Assembly: GCA_036491125.1 (NCBI GenBank)
Contig: DASXCO010000116.1
Coordinates: 1-32,423, forward strand
Direction of reading: 5' to 3'
Origin: Acidimicrobiales bacterium
GTDB taxonomy: Bacteria > Actinomycetota > Acidimicrobiia > Acidimicrobiales > AC-9
DNA: 32,423 nucleotides
Positions 23,519 to 32,423 of the stretch are shown in pieces. The first letter of the stretch is position 1; every line of letters begins with the position of its first letter. A model generated the notes under the pieces. The model was given only the letters and a program-made list of their open reading frames with translations. It did no database searches and was not told the DNA's origin. The position numbers and the translations under genes were made by a program.

Positions 23519-24145
23519 TCAGGCCCCCTCGGCCCGGGCGCGCGACAGCACCTGGTCGAGATCGGTGGCCTTGACGGCCCCGACGAGCCGGGCCACCACC
23601 AGACCGTCGGGCGCCACCACGAAGGTCTCGGGCGGGCCCCGCACGCCGTAGGCGAGCGCGACCTGGCCGCCGGGGTCCGCCACCGCCGGCCAAGCGGCGC
23701 CGGTGCTGGAGAGGAAGTGCGCGGCGCTGGTGCTGCGGTCGGCGAAGACGACACCAAGCACCTGGGCGTCACCGACGGCCCGATGCTGGTAGGCGAACTG
23801 CACCAGCTCGCTCTCCTCGACCTGGCACGGCGGGCACCAGCTGGCGAAGAAGTTCACCACGACGAAGCGACCGCGCATGGCGGACAGGTCGACCGAGCCT
23901 CCGGTCAACGCCGGACCACCGACATCGGGCGCCGGCTTGCCCAGCAGCGGGCTGGCGGCCGCCGTGGAGCTGGCGGATGGACGGGTCGCCAACACGCCAA
24001 CCAGCACACCGACCACCACCGCCACGGCGAGCGCGGCGGCCAGCACCGCCCGAGGACGGCGACGACGGGGGAGGTGGTCGGGCGACGCATCGGGCGACGG
24101 CGCATCGGGCGACGGCGCATCGGGCGACGTCACCGGCGGTGTCAC
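23519..24145 (-). CDS. ccmG: CcmG/DsbE/ResA-type membrane thioredoxin
   Basis: 208 residues from GTG 24145, overlapping the ccmF stop (GTGA). The N-terminus has a SPDAP pentapeptide repeat (from 15-bp DNA repeats), then a membrane helix (about 32-52, AVLAAALAVAVVVGVLVGVL). An extracytoplasmic thioredoxin domain follows, with GKPAPDVGGPAL, VVVNFFASWCPPCQVEESEL (active site CPPC) and a late GPPETFVVAPDG with the cis-Pro. It feeds reductant to CcmH/apocytochrome. It is positioned between ccmF and ccmH as in System I operons. Confidence 0.94.
   Translation of the reverse strand: MTPPVTSPDAPSPDAPSPDASPDHLPRRRRPRAVLAAALAVAVVVGVLVGVLATRPSASSTAAASPLLGKPAPDVGGPALTGGSVDLSAMRGRFVVVNFFASWCPPCQVEESELVQFAYQHRAVGDAQVLGVVFADRSTSAAHFLSSTGAAWPAVADPGGQVALAYGVRGPPETFVVAPDGLVVARLVGAVKATDLDQVLSRARAEGA
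24086..24129. repeat. 15-bp tandem repeats in ccmG
   Basis: Three near-identical units of CGCATCGGGCGACGG in tandem (the last 14 bases long) encode the SPDAP pentapeptides of the CcmG cytoplasmic N-terminus. The unit is a multiple of three, so copy number can vary in frame. Confidence 0.85.
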
Positions 24146-26232
24146 GACCCACCGCCTGACCCGGCGACGACCGGCTCGGGGTCGGGTTGGGACGCCTCGG
24201 GGGCGACCATCGCCGGCTCCGGCTCAGCCCCCCCGGCGGCGCGGCGACGACGCTCGGGCAGCGCCGCCATGACGGCTCCGAGGCCCATGACGGCTCCGCC
24301 GATCCAGAGCCAGGCCACCATCGGCTGGACGACGACCCCCACGACCGCGGTCCCGGCCTGCGCCGGCCCGAGGTTGGTGCCGGACTCCCCGCTCACCGCT
24401 GACGGTGCGGGCCCGCCCCCGATGGTGGCGCCGTCCGGGGGGTTGTCGAGGGTGAGGTACACGTCGCTGGTGAGGCTGCTGGCCACCGACGGCGTGCCGA
24501 TCCCCTCGGCGTCCGAACCGAACTGGCTGACCGCCGGGCGGTACACGGCGCCGTCGTCGACGCGCACCGCCGCCTCCAGCTCGCGGCGGTTCGGGTGTAC
24601 CACGCCGCGGGTGCCGAGATAGGTGAGCGTGTGGCCGGCAAACTGCGTCGACTGGCCGGGAGCCAGCCGTAGCTGGCCGCGGTGGCCGAAGGAGAGGCTG
24701 GCCGACAGGGCCACCGCGATCAGCACGACTCCGAGGTGGACGACCATCCCTCCGTTGGTCCGACCGACCAGCCCGCTCCACAGCGGCACACCCCGGCGAC
24801 GGGCTGCTCGCGTCGACACCAGGAGCTGGCGAAGCGCCGACGTGCCGGCGAACGCACCCAGGCCGAAGGCCAGCAGCACGGCGAAGCCCCGTATCCCGGC
24901 GACGACACACCCGACCACCACCAGCGTGCCCGCCCACGCTGGCCACTGGAGGCGGCTGCGGAGCAGCTCGCCGTTCGCCTTTCGCCACGGCAGCACCGGA
25001 GCCACCGCCATGAAGAACAGCAACGCCAACCCGATGGGCCTCGACATGGTGTCGAAGTACGGCCTCCCGACCGAGATCTGCTGGCCCTGCACCGCTTCGG
25101 ATAGGAGCGGGAAGACCGTCCCGAGCAGCACCACGAGGGCGAAGCCGGCGAAGAGCAGGTTGTTCACGAGGAATGCGCCTTCGCGCGACACCGGCGCGTC
25201 GATGCTTCCCGGCGCCCGCAGACGGTCCCCCCGCCAGGCGATGAGACCGAGCGCCGTCGCCACGACGAGGCCGAAGAAGCCCAGGATGATCGGGCCGATG
25301 GTGGACTGCGAGAACGAGTGCACCGACTCGAGGACGCCCGAACGGGTGAGGAAGGTGCCGAGGATGGTGAGGCTGAACGCGGCCATGAGCAACGACAGGT
25401 TCCACACCCGGAGCAGCCCGCGCCGCTCCTGGGCCATGACCGAATGGAGGTATGCCGTTCCACACAGCCAGGGGAGGAACGAGGCGTTCTCGACCGGGTC
25501 CCACGCCCAGAAGCCTCCCCACCCGAGGACCTGGTAGGACCACCATGCGCCCAGCACGATGCCGATGGTGAGGAACCCCCAGGCGAAGAGCGTCCACCGC
25601 CGCGTCTCGACGAGCCACCCCTCGTCAAGACGACCGGTGACGAGGGCAGCCACGGCGAACGCGAACGGGATGGTGAAGCCCACGAAGCCCAGGTACAGCA
25701 ACGGCGGGTGAAAGGCGACCAACGGGTGGTCCTGGAGCAGCGGGTTGGGACCCACGCCGTCGAGCGGTATCGCACCGGAAGCGGTGTGGAAGGGGCTCGC
25801 CGGTCCGAGCATCAGCCCGAAGAAGAAGGCAGCCACGACGAAGCACGTGAGCGTGGCCCATCCCACGATCGGGTCCTCCGCCCGACGCCGGAAGCGCCAC
25901 GCCATGGCCGCGATGTAGCCCGCGAGGACCAGCGCCCACAGCAGGATCGATCCCTCCAGCGCCGACCACATGCCGGTCACGGTGAACAGCAGCGGCGTCT
26001 CCCGGCTGTTGTTCTGGGCTACATAGGTCAGGGAGAAGTCGTGGCTGATCAGTGCGTGCTCCATGGCCCCGGTCGCCACCAGGGCGGCGACCAGCAGCAG
26101 CCCGGCATAGACGACACCGTTGCGCAGGGCACCGGGACGCCGGCGAACGAGCCCCACGGCGAGCGTCACCGCCCCGACCACGGCGGCCAGAAAGCCGAGC
26201 AGTACGGCGTCTCGCCCGATGGCGGCGTTCAT
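24142..26232 (-). CDS. ccmF: Haem lyase CcmF
   Basis: 696 residues with about 14-15 hydrophobic segments. The family haem-binding tryptophan-rich motif is intact: WGGFWAWDPVENASFLPW (238-255), with FHPPLLYLGFVGFTIPF before it, and TRSGVLESVHSF after it. A long C-terminal extracytoplasmic region contains RGQLRLAPGQSTQFAGHTL, then a final helix and a basic Pro-rich tail. CcmF with CcmH/I attaches haem from holo-CcmE to apocytochrome CxxCH. The start ATG overlaps the ccmE stop (ATGA); the stop overlaps the ccmG start. The length is normal for System I CcmF/NrfE. Confidence 0.96.
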   Translation of the reverse strand: MNAAIGRDAVLLGFLAAVVGAVTLAVGLVRRRPGALRNGVVYAGLLLVAALVATGAMEHALISHDFSLTYVAQNNSRETPLLFTVTGMWSALEGSILLWALVLAGYIAAMAWRFRRRAEDPIVGWATLTCFVVAAFFFGLMLGPASPFHTASGAIPLDGVGPNPLLQDHPLVAFHPPLLYLGFVGFTIPFAFAVAALVTGRLDEGWLVETRRWTLFAWGFLTIGIVLGAWWSYQVLGWGGFWAWDPVENASFLPWLCGTAYLHSVMAQERRGLLRVWNLSLLMAAFSLTILGTFLTRSGVLESVHSFSQSTIGPIILGFFGLVVATALGLIAWRGDRLRAPGSIDAPVSREGAFLVNNLLFAGFALVVLLGTVFPLLSEAVQGQQISVGRPYFDTMSRPIGLALLFFMAVAPVLPWRKANGELLRSRLQWPAWAGTLVVVGCVVAGIRGFAVLLAFGLGAFAGTSALRQLLVSTRAARRRGVPLWSGLVGRTNGGMVVHLGVVLIAVALSASLSFGHRGQLRLAPGQSTQFAGHTLTYLGTRGVVHPNRRELEAAVRVDDGAVYRPAVSQFGSDAEGIGTPSVASSLTSDVYLTLDNPPDGATIGGGPAPSAVSGESGTNLGPAQAGTAVVGVVVQPMVAWLWIGGAVMGLGAVMAALPERRRRAAGGAEPEPAMVAPEASQPDPEPVVAGSGGGS

Positions 26233-26672
26233 CGAGCGCTGCCGTCAGGCGCAGTCACCCGGCCGGGATGCTGCGCGATGTAGACGGCGGAGTGCTTGAC
26301 CATGATCTGGTCGCTGACGAACTGCTGGCCCGCGAAGTGGCCCTCGAGGACGACGGGGACATTCGGCTGGAACAGCTGGGGCGCTGACCCCTGGTTGACC
26401 ACCGGGACCTGGACGTCCTTGCTGGCGATGGCGAAGGCGACGTCGTTCCCTGTGGGTCGCACGGAACCGGGCACGACCACACCCTCGATCCGAAAGTCGC
26501 GACTGCCCAGCTGGGCGCGGGACGCCACCGCCTCGTCCGCCGTCTTGAAGTAGACGATGGAGTTGCCGAGACCCCGGTAGACCAGGAAGCCGATGGCACC
26601 GAGCACGACGATCCCGGCCAACCACAGCCGCCGGGAGCTGTGGATCCGGGGCCGCGCCCTCGTCAGCGCCAC
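26229..26672 (-). CDS. ccmE: Haem chaperone CcmE
   Basis: 147 residues from a GTG overlapping the ccmD stop by 10 bp. One N-terminal membrane helix (about 16-34, LWLAGIVVLGAIGFLVYRG) leads into the OB-fold domain with RIEGVVVPGSVRPTGNDVAF and FQPNVPVVLEGHF. The haem-binding motif is HxxxY: H127 and Y131 in VKHSAVYIAQHPG. The covalent haem attachment His is therefore conserved; this is not the CxxxY variant known from archaea and some Desulfovibrio. CcmE ferries haem from CcmC to CcmF. Confidence 0.95.
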   Translation of the reverse strand: MALTRARPRIHSSRRLWLAGIVVLGAIGFLVYRGLGNSIVYFKTADEAVASRAQLGSRDFRIEGVVVPGSVRPTGNDVAFAIASKDVQVPVVNQGSAPQLFQPNVPVVLEGHFAGQQFVSDQIMVKHSAVYIAQHPGRVTAPDGSAR

Positions 26673-26827
26673 CCGCGGGACTCCCGTGTCGCCGCCTCGC
26701 CGGCGTCACGATGGCGGGCTGGTCCGACGGCTCGCTTGATCGATCGCGCTCGCAGCGACATCCACACCGTGTAGGCCGTCAGGGTGACACCGACGACGGT
26801 GTAACCCGACTCCACGTAGCCGCTCAC
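26663..26827 (-). CDS. ccmD: CcmD-like small membrane protein
   Basis: 54 residues from GTG 26827, overlapping the ccmC stop (GTGA). A single membrane helix (about 7-25, SGYTVVGVTLTAYTVWMSL) ends in a basic cytoplasmic tail RARSIKRAVG, the CcmD pattern: very short, one helix, positive-inside C-terminus. CcmD helps release holo-CcmE from the CcmABC complex. It lies exactly between ccmC and ccmE, as in classic System I operons. Small-gene status rests on position, overlap and topology rather than sequence identity. Confidence 0.85.
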   Translation of the reverse strand: MSGYVESGYTVVGVTLTAYTVWMSLRARSIKRAVGPARHRDAGEAATRESRGWR

Positions 26828-27612
26828 CGGCTCGCCACCGGTTCGTCGATGACCACGTCGGCGTCGTCCGGGGAAACCAGCACCCCCTCTGCCGCCTCGG
26901 CCCGGCGTTCGGCCAGAGCCAGGGACAGACCCTCGGTCTCGAGCCGCTCCTCCAAGGTCTCGAGGCGGTACCGGTGCACGAGCAGCCAGGCGTAGACAAG
27001 GGTGAACGCACAGAACCCCAGGAGCATCGTCCACGCCATCGATCCGTGGACTGTCGGCTGGAGGCTCGGTGTGAGCACCGTGGCCGACTGGTGCAGCGTC
27101 CGCCACCACACCACGGAGAGATGGACGATGGGCACGTCGACCACTGCCACCAGCGCGGCGATCGCCGAGCGCTTCGCCCGCGTCTCCAGCTCACCCCCCA
27201 CCCGCCGCAGGGCCAGGTAGCCGAGGTAGAGGACCAGCAGCAGGGCTGTGGTGGTCAGCCGGGCGTCCCACGTCCACCACACACCCCAAGCGGGTCGACC
27301 CCAGATGGACCCGGTGACCAGCGTCAGCGCCGTGAAGACCACTCCGATCTCGGCCGACGCGCCGGCGAGGCGGTCCCAGGCCAGCGATCGGGTCCTCGGC
27401 CACAGGTAGAGCACGCTGGCCAGGGCGGTCACGGCGAACGCGAGATAGGCAACCCAGGCCACGGGAGGATGCACGTAGATCAGCCGGACGAGGTCACCCT
27501 GCACGACGTCGGGAGGCGTGACCCACAGGCCGAGGGCCACGGTGGCGGCCACCGCCGCCAGGGTGGCGATACCCAGAGCCCGCGTGGCGCGCACGGACGT
27601 GATCGACATCAT
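26824..27612 (-). CDS. ccmC: Haem transporter/handling protein CcmC
   Basis: 262 residues; the start overlaps the ccmB stop (ATGATG, so 27612 or 27609). Six membrane helices carry the haem-handling WWD motif [12 protein letters not shown] (109-120), an upstream [10 protein letters not shown] with H48, and [18 protein letters not shown] with the other conserved His, so the two haem-ligand histidines flank the WWD motif. The acidic C-terminal tail (about 229-262) looks like a lineage extension. CcmC loads haem onto CcmE with the CcmAB ABC transporter. Confidence 0.95.
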
Positions 27613-28277
27613 CCATCCTCCAGGAGCGGACCGAAGGCGATCACACCGACGGTCACGTAGATCACAGCGAAGACACCGAGCAGCTGGAGCCAGGCATTGC
27701 CATCGGCGGGAGTGCCCGAGAGCGCCGCCTCCCAGGCCCGGGTGGCGCCCAGCAGCACCGGCGCCACCACGGGAAGCAGCAGGAGCGGCAACAACGTCTC
27801 ACGGACTCGAAGGCCGGCTGCCAGCACTCCGTACACGGTGCCGGCAGCAGCCAGGCCCACCGTGGCAGTCGAGGTCGAGCCCAGGAGCAACAGCGCCCCG
27901 TGCAGGTGCGAGCCGTAGAGCACCACGATGCCGGCGGCCAGGAGGGCCTCGAGCACCAGCAGCTGGACGACGACGGCAGCCGCCTTGCCGAGAAAGATCC
28001 CGGCCGGATCGAGACCCGAGAGACGGAGGCCGTCGCGCGCCGAGTCGGCCGCTTCCATCGCAAAGCTGCGTTGCACCGCCAGCAACGAGCACAACAGCAC
28101 CGCCACCCAGAAGAGCCCGGCGGTCGCCCTGGTCAACACGCCCCGGCTCGGGTCCAGTGCGAAGGCGAACAGCACGAGCACCACCAGGGCGAACGGCGCG
28201 ACCTGGTTCGTGGCGACGCGCGAGCGGAGCTCGACTCTGAGGTCCTTGCCGGCCACGAGCAGCGCGTCACGCCACAT
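27609..28277 (-). CDS. ccmB: ABC transporter permease CcmB
   Basis: 222 residues from ATG 28277, overlapping the ccmA stop by 11 bp. It has six hydrophobic segments with the CcmB pattern: an N-terminal DLRVELRSRVATNQVAPF, VLLCSLLAVQRSFAMEAADSA with the SARDGLRLSGLDP segment, LHGALLLLGSTSTATVGLAAAG, and RVRETLLPLLLLPVVAPVLLG, a typical CcmB helix pair. It is the permease of the CcmAB(C) complex needed to release haem-loaded CcmE. A frame extending further upstream overlaps ccmA in another phase and is not used. Confidence 0.93.
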   Translation of the reverse strand: MWRDALLVAGKDLRVELRSRVATNQVAPFALVVLVLFAFALDPSRGVLTRATAGLFWVAVLLCSLLAVQRSFAMEAADSARDGLRLSGLDPAGIFLGKAAAVVVQLLVLEALLAAGIVVLYGSHLHGALLLLGSTSTATVGLAAAGTVYGVLAAGLRVRETLLPLLLLPVVAPVLLGATRAWEAALSGTPADGNAWLQLLGVFAVIYVTVGVIAFGPLLEDG

Positions 28278-29007
28278 GGACCGGCTCCCCGGTCGGCGAC
28301 TCGGCCGGGACGTCGACGCGGCCGCGACCGGTGCCCTGCTCGACATCGGTCGCCGCGGCCAACGACTCCTCCCCCACGACCTGACCACCGGCCATCCTCG
28401 CCACCCTCCCGGCGATGGCCCCGGCGCGGTCGGTCTCGTGGGAAGCCAGGATGACCGTGGCACCGGTGCCCGACGCCGCCAGCACCGCCTCGTCGAGAAT
28501 GTCGCGCCCGGCGGCGTCCAAGCCGGCGTGGGGTTCGTCGAGCAGCCAGAGCCGCGGGGCCCGAGCGACCACGGAGGCGATGGCGACGCGCCGCCGCTGT
28601 CCAGCCGACAGCTTGCCGACGACCGTGTGGCGGAGGCGCCCGTCGAGGCCGAGGCGGGACAGGGCCTGGTCGACCGCGCCCTGATCGCCCCGCGCCGCCC
28701 GCACGATGAACCGGAGGTTGTCCGCCACGGTCAGGTCGTCGTAGAGGAAGCTGGCGTGCCCCAGCAGGGCCAACGAGCGCCGCACCGAGCGCCGGTCCTG
28801 ACGCAGGTCGTGCCCGAGGACGTGGGCCTCGCCGGCGGATACGGCCAAGAGTCCTGCGCACGCCCGCAGCAGGCTCGTCTTCCCGGCTCCGTTCGGACCG
28901 GTGACGAGCAGGATCTCACCGGAGGCTACGTCGAGATCGACGCCGGCCAGGGCCGGAAAGCGCCCCACGAGGGCGACGGCAGCACGGAAGCGGACAGCAG
29001 CGGCCAT
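28267..29007 (-). CDS. ccmA: ABC transporter ATP-binding protein CcmA
   Basis: 246 residues with a complete ATPase: Walker A GPNGAGKTSL (37-46), ABC signature KLSAGQRRRVAIAS (with LSAGQ at 133-137), Walker B LWLLDEPHAGLD (153-164) and a switch His in ILASHETDRA. The signature LSAGQ rather than LSGGQ is typical of CcmA. It is the first gene of the minus-strand ccm operon, with the promoter presumably in 29008-29067. A short acidic C-terminal tail follows the ATPase core. It powers CcmB. Confidence 0.94.
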   Translation of the reverse strand: MAAAVRFRAAVALVGRFPALAGVDLDVASGEILLVTGPNGAGKTSLLRACAGLLAVSAGEAHVLGHDLRQDRRSVRRSLALLGHASFLYDDLTVADNLRFIVRAARGDQGAVDQALSRLGLDGRLRHTVVGKLSAGQRRRVAIASVVARAPRLWLLDEPHAGLDAAGRDILDEAVLAASGTGATVILASHETDRAGAIAGRVARMAGGQVVGEESLAAATDVEQGTGRGRVDVPAESPTGEPVHVA

Positions 29008-30461: not shown

Positions 30462-31337
30462 TCAGATGCTGGCAGGCAGCACCCTGCTGATGGCGGCGAA
30501 CAAGAAGAACAGGGCAGCGAGGAAGGCCGGAGCACCCAAAATGTAGACGAGCCAGCGGCGACGTCTGAGGCGGGTCGCAAGCCAGATTCCGACAGCCACA
30601 GCCGCGGTCGCCAGCCCCCAGGCGACCACCGGCAACGACGAACCGGTGTCGCCGGCCAGGGTGGGTGTCGCTCGACTCGGGCCGGCGGGCACCGTAGCGG
30701 TGGGCGTGGGAGGTCCGACCAGCGAGGCCTGGACGATGAGGCGGTGACTCGCGCTGTAGCGGGGAGTGCATGTCGTCAGCGTGAGCTCGTCGGTCCCAGT
30801 TGGCGCGACGACGGAGACGTCGGATGGCTCCACCACGAGCGATCGGCTGACGTCGTACCGAAAGGTGCCCTGAGAAGTGGTGACCATGACCGGGTCCCCC
30901 GGCACGAGGTCATTCAAACGAGAGAACGGGGCACCATAGGTGGTGCGGTGCCCGGCGATGCTGGCGTTGCCCGGTTGACCCGGTAAGGGAGTGCCCCGGT
31001 AATGACCAGGTCCTTGCCGAAGGTCGGCCGTGCCTGTGCCCTCGACGATTGCCTTGTCCAAACCCAGTTTTGGGATCGTGATGATTCCGACGGCACTCCC
31101 CTCGGGTGGCGGGCTCGGTGGAGCGCGGCCTCCGGTCACCGGTGGGAGACCCTCCGGCACTGACGTCGTGGCCGGACGTGTCGACTGCCGGCCTGAGAGC
31201 TGGTGCCGGAGAACATCCTGGCTGTGGGATTCCGACAGCCCGGTGCCCCACAGTTGGTAGGCGACGAATGCCAGCACCAAGGCGCCGAGGCCGATCATCA
31301 CGCGGCCGATCCCAGCTATCACCCTCCCCATTGCCAC
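30462..31337 (-). CDS. srtE: Class E sortase
   Basis: 291 residues: an N-terminal membrane helix (about 8-28), a Ser/Pro-rich linker (about 45-80) and the sortase barrel starting VGIITIPKLGLDKAIVEG. The catalytic triad is H130 (IAGHRTTYGAPF), C190 (LTLTTCTPRYS) and R199 (SHRLIV). The Y134 after HRTT and the TLTTC block are class E features, and two further helices (about 236-255, 262-287) form the unusual C-terminal anchor. Class E enzymes, such as streptomycete SrtE, prefer LAxTG signals; the neighbouring upstream gene ends in LAFTG. Its natural job is therefore anchoring that chaplin/collagen-like protein to the wall. Confidence 0.94.
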   Translation of the reverse strand: MAMGRVIAGIGRVMIGLGALVLAFVAYQLWGTGLSESHSQDVLRHQLSGRQSTRPATTSVPEGLPPVTGGRAPPSPPPEGSAVGIITIPKLGLDKAIVEGTGTADLRQGPGHYRGTPLPGQPGNASIAGHRTTYGAPFSRLNDLVPGDPVMVTTSQGTFRYDVSRSLVVEPSDVSVVAPTGTDELTLTTCTPRYSASHRLIVQASLVGPPTPTATVPAGPSRATPTLAGDTGSSLPVVAWGLATAAVAVGIWLATRLRRRRWLVYILGAPAFLAALFFLFAAISRVLPASI

Positions 31338-31492
31338 CTGGTCAAGCTAGGAGCGGCCCAACGGGTAGCGCCGGGGTCAGCCACGGTCGTAGTCGTCGTC
31401 GAATCCTCCCGAGTGATATTGGGGCGTCGCGGATGTGCCGCCTATTTGAGGCAATCGTCACTCGATCGAGGTGCTGTAGGGGCGGGCGGCCA
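31338..31492. other. Intergenic region upstream of the sortase
   Basis: Non-coding between the sortase start and the terminator hairpin of the repeat protein. It should hold the sortase promoter on the minus strand. The base composition is less GC-biased around 31410-31445 (AT-rich TATTGG and TATTTG), but I see no convincing hexamer pair. Confidence 0.4.
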
Positions 31493-31536
31493 CCGAGCCC
31501 GCCGGCCAACCAAATCGGTTCGACCGGCGGGCTCGG
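31493..31536 (-). terminator. Terminator hairpin after the LAFTG repeat protein
   Basis: Perfect 13-bp stem CCGAGCCCGCCGG (31493-31505) with CCGGCGGGCTCGG (31524-31536) and an 18-nt loop that can pair internally (AACC/GGTT). It lies 13 bp past the minus-strand stop at 31550. No T-run is obvious, so termination may be hairpin-only or rho-assisted. Confidence 0.7.
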
Positions 31537-31549
31537 ATGGCTGACTCGC

Positions 31550-32423
31550 CTAACTGGTCTGGACCGAGCTGAGGCGCTGTCGCCGCCTCGACCAGAAGAT
31601 GAGGAGGCCGCCAACCCCGAAGAGCGCCAGGGCCAACAGGACAAGACTCGAAGCGGCGATACCGGTAAAGGCCAGCTGACCAGTCGTCGGCTGATTCACC
31701 GTCGACGGGCTCGCGCCCGCGGCGACGGGAGTCTGGCTGCCCGACACTGTGGCGCCACCGAGGAGCGCGGCTTCGGGCGAGGTCACGAAGGCGACCAGGA
31801 GTGCGCCAGACGATGGTGCCCCCGAAAGTGTGGGAACACCTGGGCCACCTGGGCCACCTGGGCTGCCTGGGCCACCTGGGCTGCCTGGGCTACCTGGGCC
31901 GCCGGGACCACCTGGCCCGCCGGGACCACCTGGGCCGCCGGGACCACCTGGGCCGGTCGTCCCACAATCTCCGCTCGCGCTGCCGCCGAGGGCCGTGACG
32001 CTGTTGCCGCAGACGGTCACCGGGGCGGTGATGGGGAGCGTGGTGCCGTTGCCGGACACCGGTCCGCTGTTGTCACCTGACCCGTTCGACCCGGTCGTGC
32101 CACCGGGGCCCCCCGGCGAGCCAGGTCCACCTGGGCCCGTCGAGTTTCCACAGGTGCCGCTCGAGGTCCCGCTGGCCGCGGTGACCGAGTTGCCGCAGAC
32201 GGTCACCGGGGCGGTGATGGGGAGCGTGGTGCCGTTGCCGGACACCGGTCCGCTGTTGTCACCTGACCCGTTCGACCCGGTGGTGCCACCGGGGCCTCCC
32301 GGCGAGCCAGGCCCACCTGGGCCCGTCGAGTTTCCACAGGTGCCGCTCGAGGTCCCGCTGGCCGCGGTGACCGAGTTGCCGCACACCGTCACCGGGGCGG
32401 TGATGGGGAGCGTGGTGCCGTTG
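31550..32423 (-). CDS. Chaplin-like/collagen-like repeat surface protein with LAFTG sorting signal, N-terminus outside window
   Basis: The frame is open through the right edge; at least 290 residues are visible. It has near-identical 62-residue units, each with a chaplin-like core [16 protein letters not shown], then [11 protein letters not shown] (two cysteines, the chaplin signature CGNxV...CxN), followed by a Gly-Pro-rich stretch [13 protein letters not shown] and a Ser/Asn/Gly linker. The most C-terminal core reads [18 protein letters not shown] longer Gly-X-Y collagen-like block (about 12 triplets) follows, then a spacer and QLAFTG (31661-31675), a membrane helix and an RRRQR tail. This is an LAxTG-type cell-wall sorting signal; the partner is the class E sortase gene next door. 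Chaplin cores self-assemble into amyloid-like surface fibrils in Streptomyces; that role here is inference. Confidence 0.9.
31661..31675 (-). other. LAFTG sortase recognition motif
   Basis: CTGGCCTTTACCGGT on the minus strand encodes LAFTG, followed by a hydrophobic stretch and a basic tail: a complete sortase sorting signal of the LAxTG type favoured by class E sortases. The sortase gene adjoins. Confidence 0.9.
31830..31960. repeat. Collagen-like Gly-Pro-X coding repeats
   Basis: The minus strand encodes about 12 Gly-Pro-Gly/Gly-Ser-Pro triplets through 9- and 18-bp sub-repeats such as GGGCCACCT and GGGACCACCT. This is a slippage-prone sequence; in other phases and on the plus strand it yields spurious repetitive frames. 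Confidence 0.85.
31993..32423. repeat. 186-bp tandem repeats (62-residue chaplin/collagen units)
   Basis: Period 186 bp, shown by the recurrence of GGTCACCGGGGCGGTGATGG in the 3' part of each unit: the AGAC/ACAC before it falls at 32011, 32197 and 32383. Neighbouring copies differ at only a few bases, so the array is either recently expanded or gene-converted. Copies continue beyond the right edge. Confidence 0.9.

Follow-up and report, generated by a model that had tools for sequence, protein, structure and literature searches.

A long-chaplin-like surface protein with Gly-Pro-rich spacers, encoded beside a class E sortase in an Acidimicrobiales draft genome

We analysed a stretch of DNA from an Acidimicrobiales bacterium, here called the window, which is one entire contig of 32423 bp (DASXCO010000116.1; G000:C116) from a draft genome of 3.83 Mb and 251 contigs. 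At one end of the window, on the minus strand, lie the 3′ part of a gene for a surface protein (31550..32422) and, downstream of it, a gene for a class E sortase (30462..31337). The surface protein is a real, mildly unusual and recognisable variant of the long-chaplin family. It is probably anchored to the wall and most likely serves there as a scaffold, with a role in a surface coat, attachment or hydrophobicity; a free amyloid fibre is less likely. What sets it apart is that Gly-Pro tracts separate its chaplin-like cores, of which there are at least three.

The open frame of the surface protein gene shows 290 amino acids before its 5′ end passes the contig edge. Against Pfam ChpA-C (PF03777) the whole protein scores 50.2 bits (cut-off 21, E 2.3e-13) in three stretches. 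It is made of three 62-residue units, each a core with a Gly-Pro-rich spacer and the first truncated by the contig end, followed by a Gly-Pro tract, the motif LAFTG, a hydrophobic helix and a basic tail. The core of the partial unit at the contig end (32327..32422, minus strand) scores 20.4 bits, alone just below the cut-off. Core 2 (32141..32275, minus strand; three GN motifs) and core 3 (31982..32089, minus strand; two GN motifs) each contain two Cys and lie above the cut-off with 22.6 and 24.5 bits. The cores are spaced 62 residues (186 bp) apart, with their motifs in the order GN, 12 residues, CGN, 12 residues, CGN. For a composition test, 40 distinct chaplin domains were taken from genomes that we call Streptomyces-like, a label inferred from their size and their many chaplin genes; a hidden Markov model (HMM) built from these domains was run against 2000 shuffles. 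One window unit scored 21.8 bits compared with a shuffle maximum of 10.1 (1991/2000 shuffles reported), and the whole protein 41.7 bits compared with 8.8 (1658/2000 reported). The Pfam match and the shuffle test of the 62-residue unit thus bear out the chaplin-like cores that an earlier inspection of the letters without database searches (the sequence-only reading) had described. A PF03777 search of the same draft genome gave no further chaplin match besides the window protein.

The cores retain the first half of the chaplin domain, with an N-half hydropathy of 0.40 compared with a mean of 0.38 in the 40 reference domains. In the second half, Gly, Ser and Thr residues take the place of the hydrophobic stretch. 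The C-half hydropathy is −0.24 in core 2 and 0.03 in core 3, where the reference domains average 0.38 and go no lower than −0.22. Whole-core values of 0.15 and 0.27 fall at the low end of the reference range (0.10-0.86, mean 0.51). In ChpH, according to an excerpt of PMC7766987, both amyloid domains are required for aerial hyphae and the rodlet surface involves only the one nearer the C-terminus. The inference of self-assembly is weaker for the window cores than for typical chaplins. Single-sequence AlphaFold gives a weak model (mean predicted local distance difference test score 48.3) with strands at residues 11-21, 73-83 and 135-145, a helix at 250-287 and otherwise no regular structure. By placing a strand in every core and leaving the intervening stretches largely unstructured, this model agrees weakly with flexible spacers.

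The last 41 residues (31553..31675, minus strand) form a C-terminal sorting signal by sequence, hydropathy and motif position: LAFTG stands 41 residues from the end and is followed by a hydrophobic membrane helix and the basic tail RRRQR, just as expected of the LAxTG-type anchor that had been proposed. Two scans of the genome for further LAxTG substrates discriminated poorly. TIGR01167 gave 18 weak matches, one above the cut-off and the window's own protein below it at 11.8 bits, and it also matched 14/14 control genomes. A DNA pattern for LAxTG gave 10 matches, yet not the LAFTG of the window itself, where Gly is encoded by GGT.

Tandem Repeats Finder detects a 186-bp tandem repeat (32003..32423) of 2.3 copies with 97% matches that reaches past the contig end, and its two full copies are identical at 183/186 bases. 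The repeats of the earlier description are therefore real, and its "long" array is overstated, as 2.3 copies are seen before the contig ends. The contig stops inside the array, leaving the N-terminus, signal peptide and copy number beyond the sequence seen. Extension to the N-terminus was attempted by searching the draft genome with the protein, PF03777 and the repeat DNA, and the missing end was not located, with no chaplin or repeat match off the contig. Two side matches were dropped, one on C193 (L008) that lacks the repeat array and one on C232 (L002) that is a short Gly-Pro-rich stretch containing an internal stop. A tblastn search of plasmids with the window protein gave no match, a weak negative since a Streptomyces-like long chaplin was also unmatched there.

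The Gly-Pro-rich stretches had been read as collagen-like. Their triplet runs are present, with at most 4 uninterrupted G-X-Y triplets per run in the interleaved spacers and 13, mostly GGP, in the stalk tract before the anchor (31832..31955, minus strand), which is encoded by an 18-bp DNA repeat. Pfam Collagen, however, did not list the window protein even at an E limit of 10. In the same search, two long chaplins from Streptomyces-like genomes (L079:793-1737 and L075:444-1475) matched both ChpA-C (158.4 and 159 bits) and Collagen (38.4 and 38.3 bits, cut-off 27.2). When solved structures were searched with the surface protein, five chains came up: the collagen-like fibril chain 8zxl, two collagen peptides and a pair of proteases, each reached through the Gly-Pro tract. 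The match to 8zxl has a whole-sequence E of 5e-32, but its best single stretch reaches just 13.6 bits (E 0.32), and we took these stalk matches as low complexity.

Of ten long chaplins picked out of our phylum survey, 2/10 carry at least 10 G-X-Y triplets (18 and 22) and one more carries 6. We also collected the relatives of L079 that scored best, 30 in 121 genomes of its genus (L161-L190). At least 10 triplets occur in 22/30 and at least 14 in 19/30, and an L[AP]x[TS]G motif lies near the end in 30/30. This set was chosen by score against a collagen-stalked query and overlaps the set of ten, so it is biased and gives no frequency for the genus. The linker between the chaplin domains of these 30 reaches 4 triplets in 4 cases, of a Gly/Ser/His type and not Gly-Pro. 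The combination of chaplin, collagen-like and LAxTG elements within one protein thus has precedents. This contradicts the idea that no known protein joins chaplin cores to collagen triplets; the claim of interleaving fares better. No second example of Gly-Pro spacers between at least three cores was found in the genomes surveyed. Among the matches listed in the open-licence PMC literature, judged by title and start of abstract, none describes collagen-like stalks before LAxTG in long chaplins. The survey reveals such stalks in a number of Streptomyces-like long chaplins.

PF03777 matched 3/99 relatives including the window's genome, one of which (G046) we judged false because its frame is antisense to a longer open reading frame. 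Across the phylum it matched 15/396 genomes, again counting the window's, and 11 of these belong to a single genus, taken here as Streptomyces. A profile of divergent cores found 9/397 genomes of the order, our own included, and one of these (G186) was judged false, the protein being dehydrogenase-like by our reading. The remaining seven genomes encode multi-core chaplin-like proteins with 2-14 CGxxV cores, and L[A/P]xTG ends are seen in 5/7 (LARTG, LPATG, LASTG, LPMTG and LPLTG) and not in the other two. Their longest G-X-Y runs are 2 to 5 triplets, but 10 in G686, where the repeats are Gly-Leu/Asp. Two relatives of the order, at L127:8736-11549 and L128:8034-10193, have about 14 CGxxV cores with TDP- or VDP-type stalks. 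Three more chaplin-like proteins elsewhere in the phylum end in LASTG, LALTG and LASTG and contain one or no Cys.

The neighbouring gene encodes a 291-amino-acid protein with one N-terminal and two C-terminal hydrophobic segments. It scores 174.6 bits with NF033747 (cut-off 160) and 125.8 bits with Pfam Sortase, and its solved relatives include SrtE1 (5cuw). The earlier assignment to class E with H130, C190 and R199 is upheld by the model match and by a check of these residues. In addition, Tyr113 lies in a GHY motif whose HY pair aligns with that of the solved sortase 5go5, and the position of this Tyr is linked, in an excerpt of PMC5148588, to LAXTG preference. The window sortase (30465-31337) and a relative at L058:9131-10015 both have C-terminal hydrophobic segments after the catalytic domain, ending in VLPASI or LLPASI, with hydropathy computed for the window protein. 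The sortase gene follows the surface protein gene on the same strand after 212 bp, confirming the adjacency first noticed. Within this gap lies a GC-rich hairpin of 44 nt (31493..31536, minus strand), 13 nt past the substrate stop and without a U-tract, which is a possible terminator. The RNA fold of 31335-31560 has a z of −3.44, with 0/200 shuffles equally stable, and a terminator scan based on U-tracts found no terminator between the two genes, which may or may not be transcribed together.

We then compared sortase loci. Among 25 relatives of the sortase from named genomes, the names are at Acidimicrobiia level for 9, the most identical one included (L021, 65% over the best segment), and go no further than Actinomycetota or Actinomycetes for 11, which makes an Acidimicrobiia source of the window likely. 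Proteins with at least two CGN motifs were found at 0/25 of these loci, several of which are short contigs ending near the sortase (e.g. L018, L019, L021 and L031); the regular expressions used for neighbours would overlook Cys-less cores. A genus-mate (G001) has window-type sortases of 63% and 55% identity with no anchored neighbour, and around them only the sortase matched any window gene. The two genomes of the genus other than the window's, G001 among them, gave no chaplin match. Related sortases do often sit directly after an anchored protein of a different kind. At five loci a related sortase gene closely follows, in the same orientation, a gene for a protein with a sorting signal: G002 (L061, LPFTG), G062 (L066, LAFTG), G004 (L068, LPRTG), L038 (APHTG) and contig C153 of our own genome (L062). 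The pair in G002 is the same LPFTG pair as that on C153. In G046, a window-type sortase has a small secreted-looking LAFTG protein (about 105 residues; L063:12757-13086) encoded some 3 kb away. The same sortase/substrate pair as in the window was not found in the relatives tested, which goes against the pairing expected by the sequence-only reading, while its match to the chaplin family holds.

The reading we prefer is as follows. The surface protein would be secreted, and a class E sortase, with the neighbour as the simplest candidate, would cut it at LAFTG and attach it to the wall. Between its several chaplin-derived beta cores, which have two Cys each, the short Gly-Pro spacers would act as flexible separators, and the Gly-Pro stalk would carry the cores away from the wall. 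The most likely role would be in a surface coat, attachment or hydrophobicity, as a scaffold in the manner of long chaplins. We favour a free amyloid fibre less, since the core is less hydrophobic in its second half. A proposal in an excerpt of PMC7766987 gives long chaplins a scaffolding role for short ones; since the draft genome gave no other chaplin match, a role independent of short chaplins seems more likely here. The proteins anchored by SrtE in Actinoplanes missouriensis, which lack chaplin domains and are proposed in an excerpt of PMC13251363 to give surface hydrophobicity, are by analogy a precedent for such a role.

Several observations weigh against this reading. The hydropathy of the whole core is in the reference range, that of the N-half equals the reference and that of the C-half of core 3 is in range, so the cores may still self-assemble. 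Class E sortases were found near 0/12 other chaplin loci (7 of the order, 3 other actinobacterial and 2 Streptomyces-like), using tblastn with two sortases at E 0.001 over up to about 10 kb on each side, less at contig ends; both positive controls were found, although distant sortases could be missed and L129 ends 2.4 kb from its chaplin gene. The genome also has a second sortase, making two Pfam sortases in total. This is the one on C153 (L062:5813-7795), with a 132-residue catalytic part and class E as its best model, just downstream of an LPFTG protein in a frame of 443 amino acids. The link between sortase and substrate depends on adjacency in a single genome and is unconserved; within that genome the adjacency is suggestive of pairing. 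Moreover, the contig ends within the array, ahead of any signal peptide.

The sequence-only reading went further and proposed a dedicated surface-fibre system of self-assembling chaplin modules, rigidly spaced by collagen-like segments and anchored by their own sortase. The cores, Gly-Pro tracts, LAFTG and class E sortase are indeed all present and adjacent, and with one chaplin-like gene and two sortases in the genome, chance adjacency seems unlikely. The hydropathy of the whole cores and the weak similarity of the stalk to the fibril chain 8zxl and to collagen peptides are also in its favour. However, Pfam Collagen does not match, the spacer runs reach just 4 triplets, the second half of the cores is less hydrophobic and other chaplin loci show no class E sortase nearby. 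We consider such a system possible in principle but improbable, and do not favour it. Self-assembly is the part that is weakened, and the dedicated sortase is the part that is unsupported by conservation, given the 12 chaplin loci, the genus-mate's sortases without an anchored neighbour, the second sortase and the intergenic hairpin. Equally improbable to us is a fibre of variable length, in which Cys-pinned beta cores would act as repeat beads between Gly-Pro tracts, the length would change by recombination of the near-identical 186-bp repeats and the neighbouring sortase would anchor the whole. If true, such a fibre would belong to a lineage that is not known to form aerial hyphae. A stronger contender, although we lean against it, is that the adjacency is incidental: any active class E sortase would anchor the LAFTG protein, and the neighbour would be a general enzyme with other substrates. 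This would fit the genus-mate's 63%-identical sortase, which has neither a chaplin gene nor shared flanking genes, the chaplin arrays elsewhere without a nearby class E sortase and the hairpin between the two genes; in A. missouriensis, sortase and substrate genes are likewise reported at separate loci (PMC13251363, excerpt). It fits less well with the upstream anchored neighbours at five related loci, and the second sortase, with an LPFTG neighbour of its own in a pair also present in G002, suggests a division of labour.

Two further readings question the gene itself. A Gly/Ser/Thr/Pro-rich wall protein might match chaplins by low-complexity convergence and not homology. The HMMER bias term for the whole protein is high (24.0), and matches of about 20 bits can be false, as in G046. 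But the scores lie far above those of same-composition shuffles, the motif order is that given above and the match is repeated three times, so that this reading, already disfavoured, is very unlikely. Slightly less probable still is a pseudogene or misassembly, in which the array would be a collapsed or chimeric contig end. Near-identical repeats are a usual place for assemblies to break, and the contig ends inside them; yet 290 codons run without a stop into an intact sorting signal, with the sortase gene on the same contig.

Elsewhere in the window, on the minus strand at 24145-29007, lies a System I cytochrome c maturation cluster comprising CcmF, CcmE and CcmB, with an ATP-binding cassette ATPase that is CcmA by position.

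The window protein adds one to the chaplin-like proteins outside formers of aerial hyphae, where chaplin-like genes have already been named in Arthrobacter (PMC4255298, excerpt). The same review suggests that a role of chaplins in attachment may have come first, and the set of multi-core chaplin-like proteins in the order makes this suggestion more testable.

Among known systems, the closest are the Streptomyces long chaplins ChpA-C (PF03777), which share with the window protein cores with two Cys and GN motifs, a spacer and an LAxTG anchor, and whose use of class E sortases is reported in an excerpt of PMC5148588. They have two cores whereas the window protein has at least three, and the latter differs further in its Gly-Pro tracts between cores, its weakened hydrophobic second half and its lack of a Pfam Collagen match. 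Some Streptomyces-like long chaplins have a Gly-X-Y stalk, a clearer counterpart to its collagen-like part. The multi-core LxxTG proteins of the order (G004, G635, G652, G008 and G686) have in common with it repeated CGxxV...C cores, spacers and a C-terminal L[A/P]xTG. However, their spacers are mostly rich in Asp, Thr, Ala, Gly and Pro without Gly-Pro triplet runs, their stalks are of types such as TDP, VDP and DDPDNPG, and no class E sortase lies within the searched reach. The sortase shares its catalytic domain, the His, Cys and Arg residues and the GHY Tyr with Streptomyces coelicolor SrtE1 (PDB 5cuw) and other class E sortases, and differs from them in its two C-terminal hydrophobic segments, an ending common to L058. 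SrtE1 is not known to have these two segments. Bacterial collagen-like proteins, such as pneumococcal PclA (PMC8968730, excerpt), are also wall proteins with Gly-X-Y stretches and a sorting signal, whereas the window protein has only 13 continuous triplets, mostly GGP, that Pfam Collagen does not recognise.

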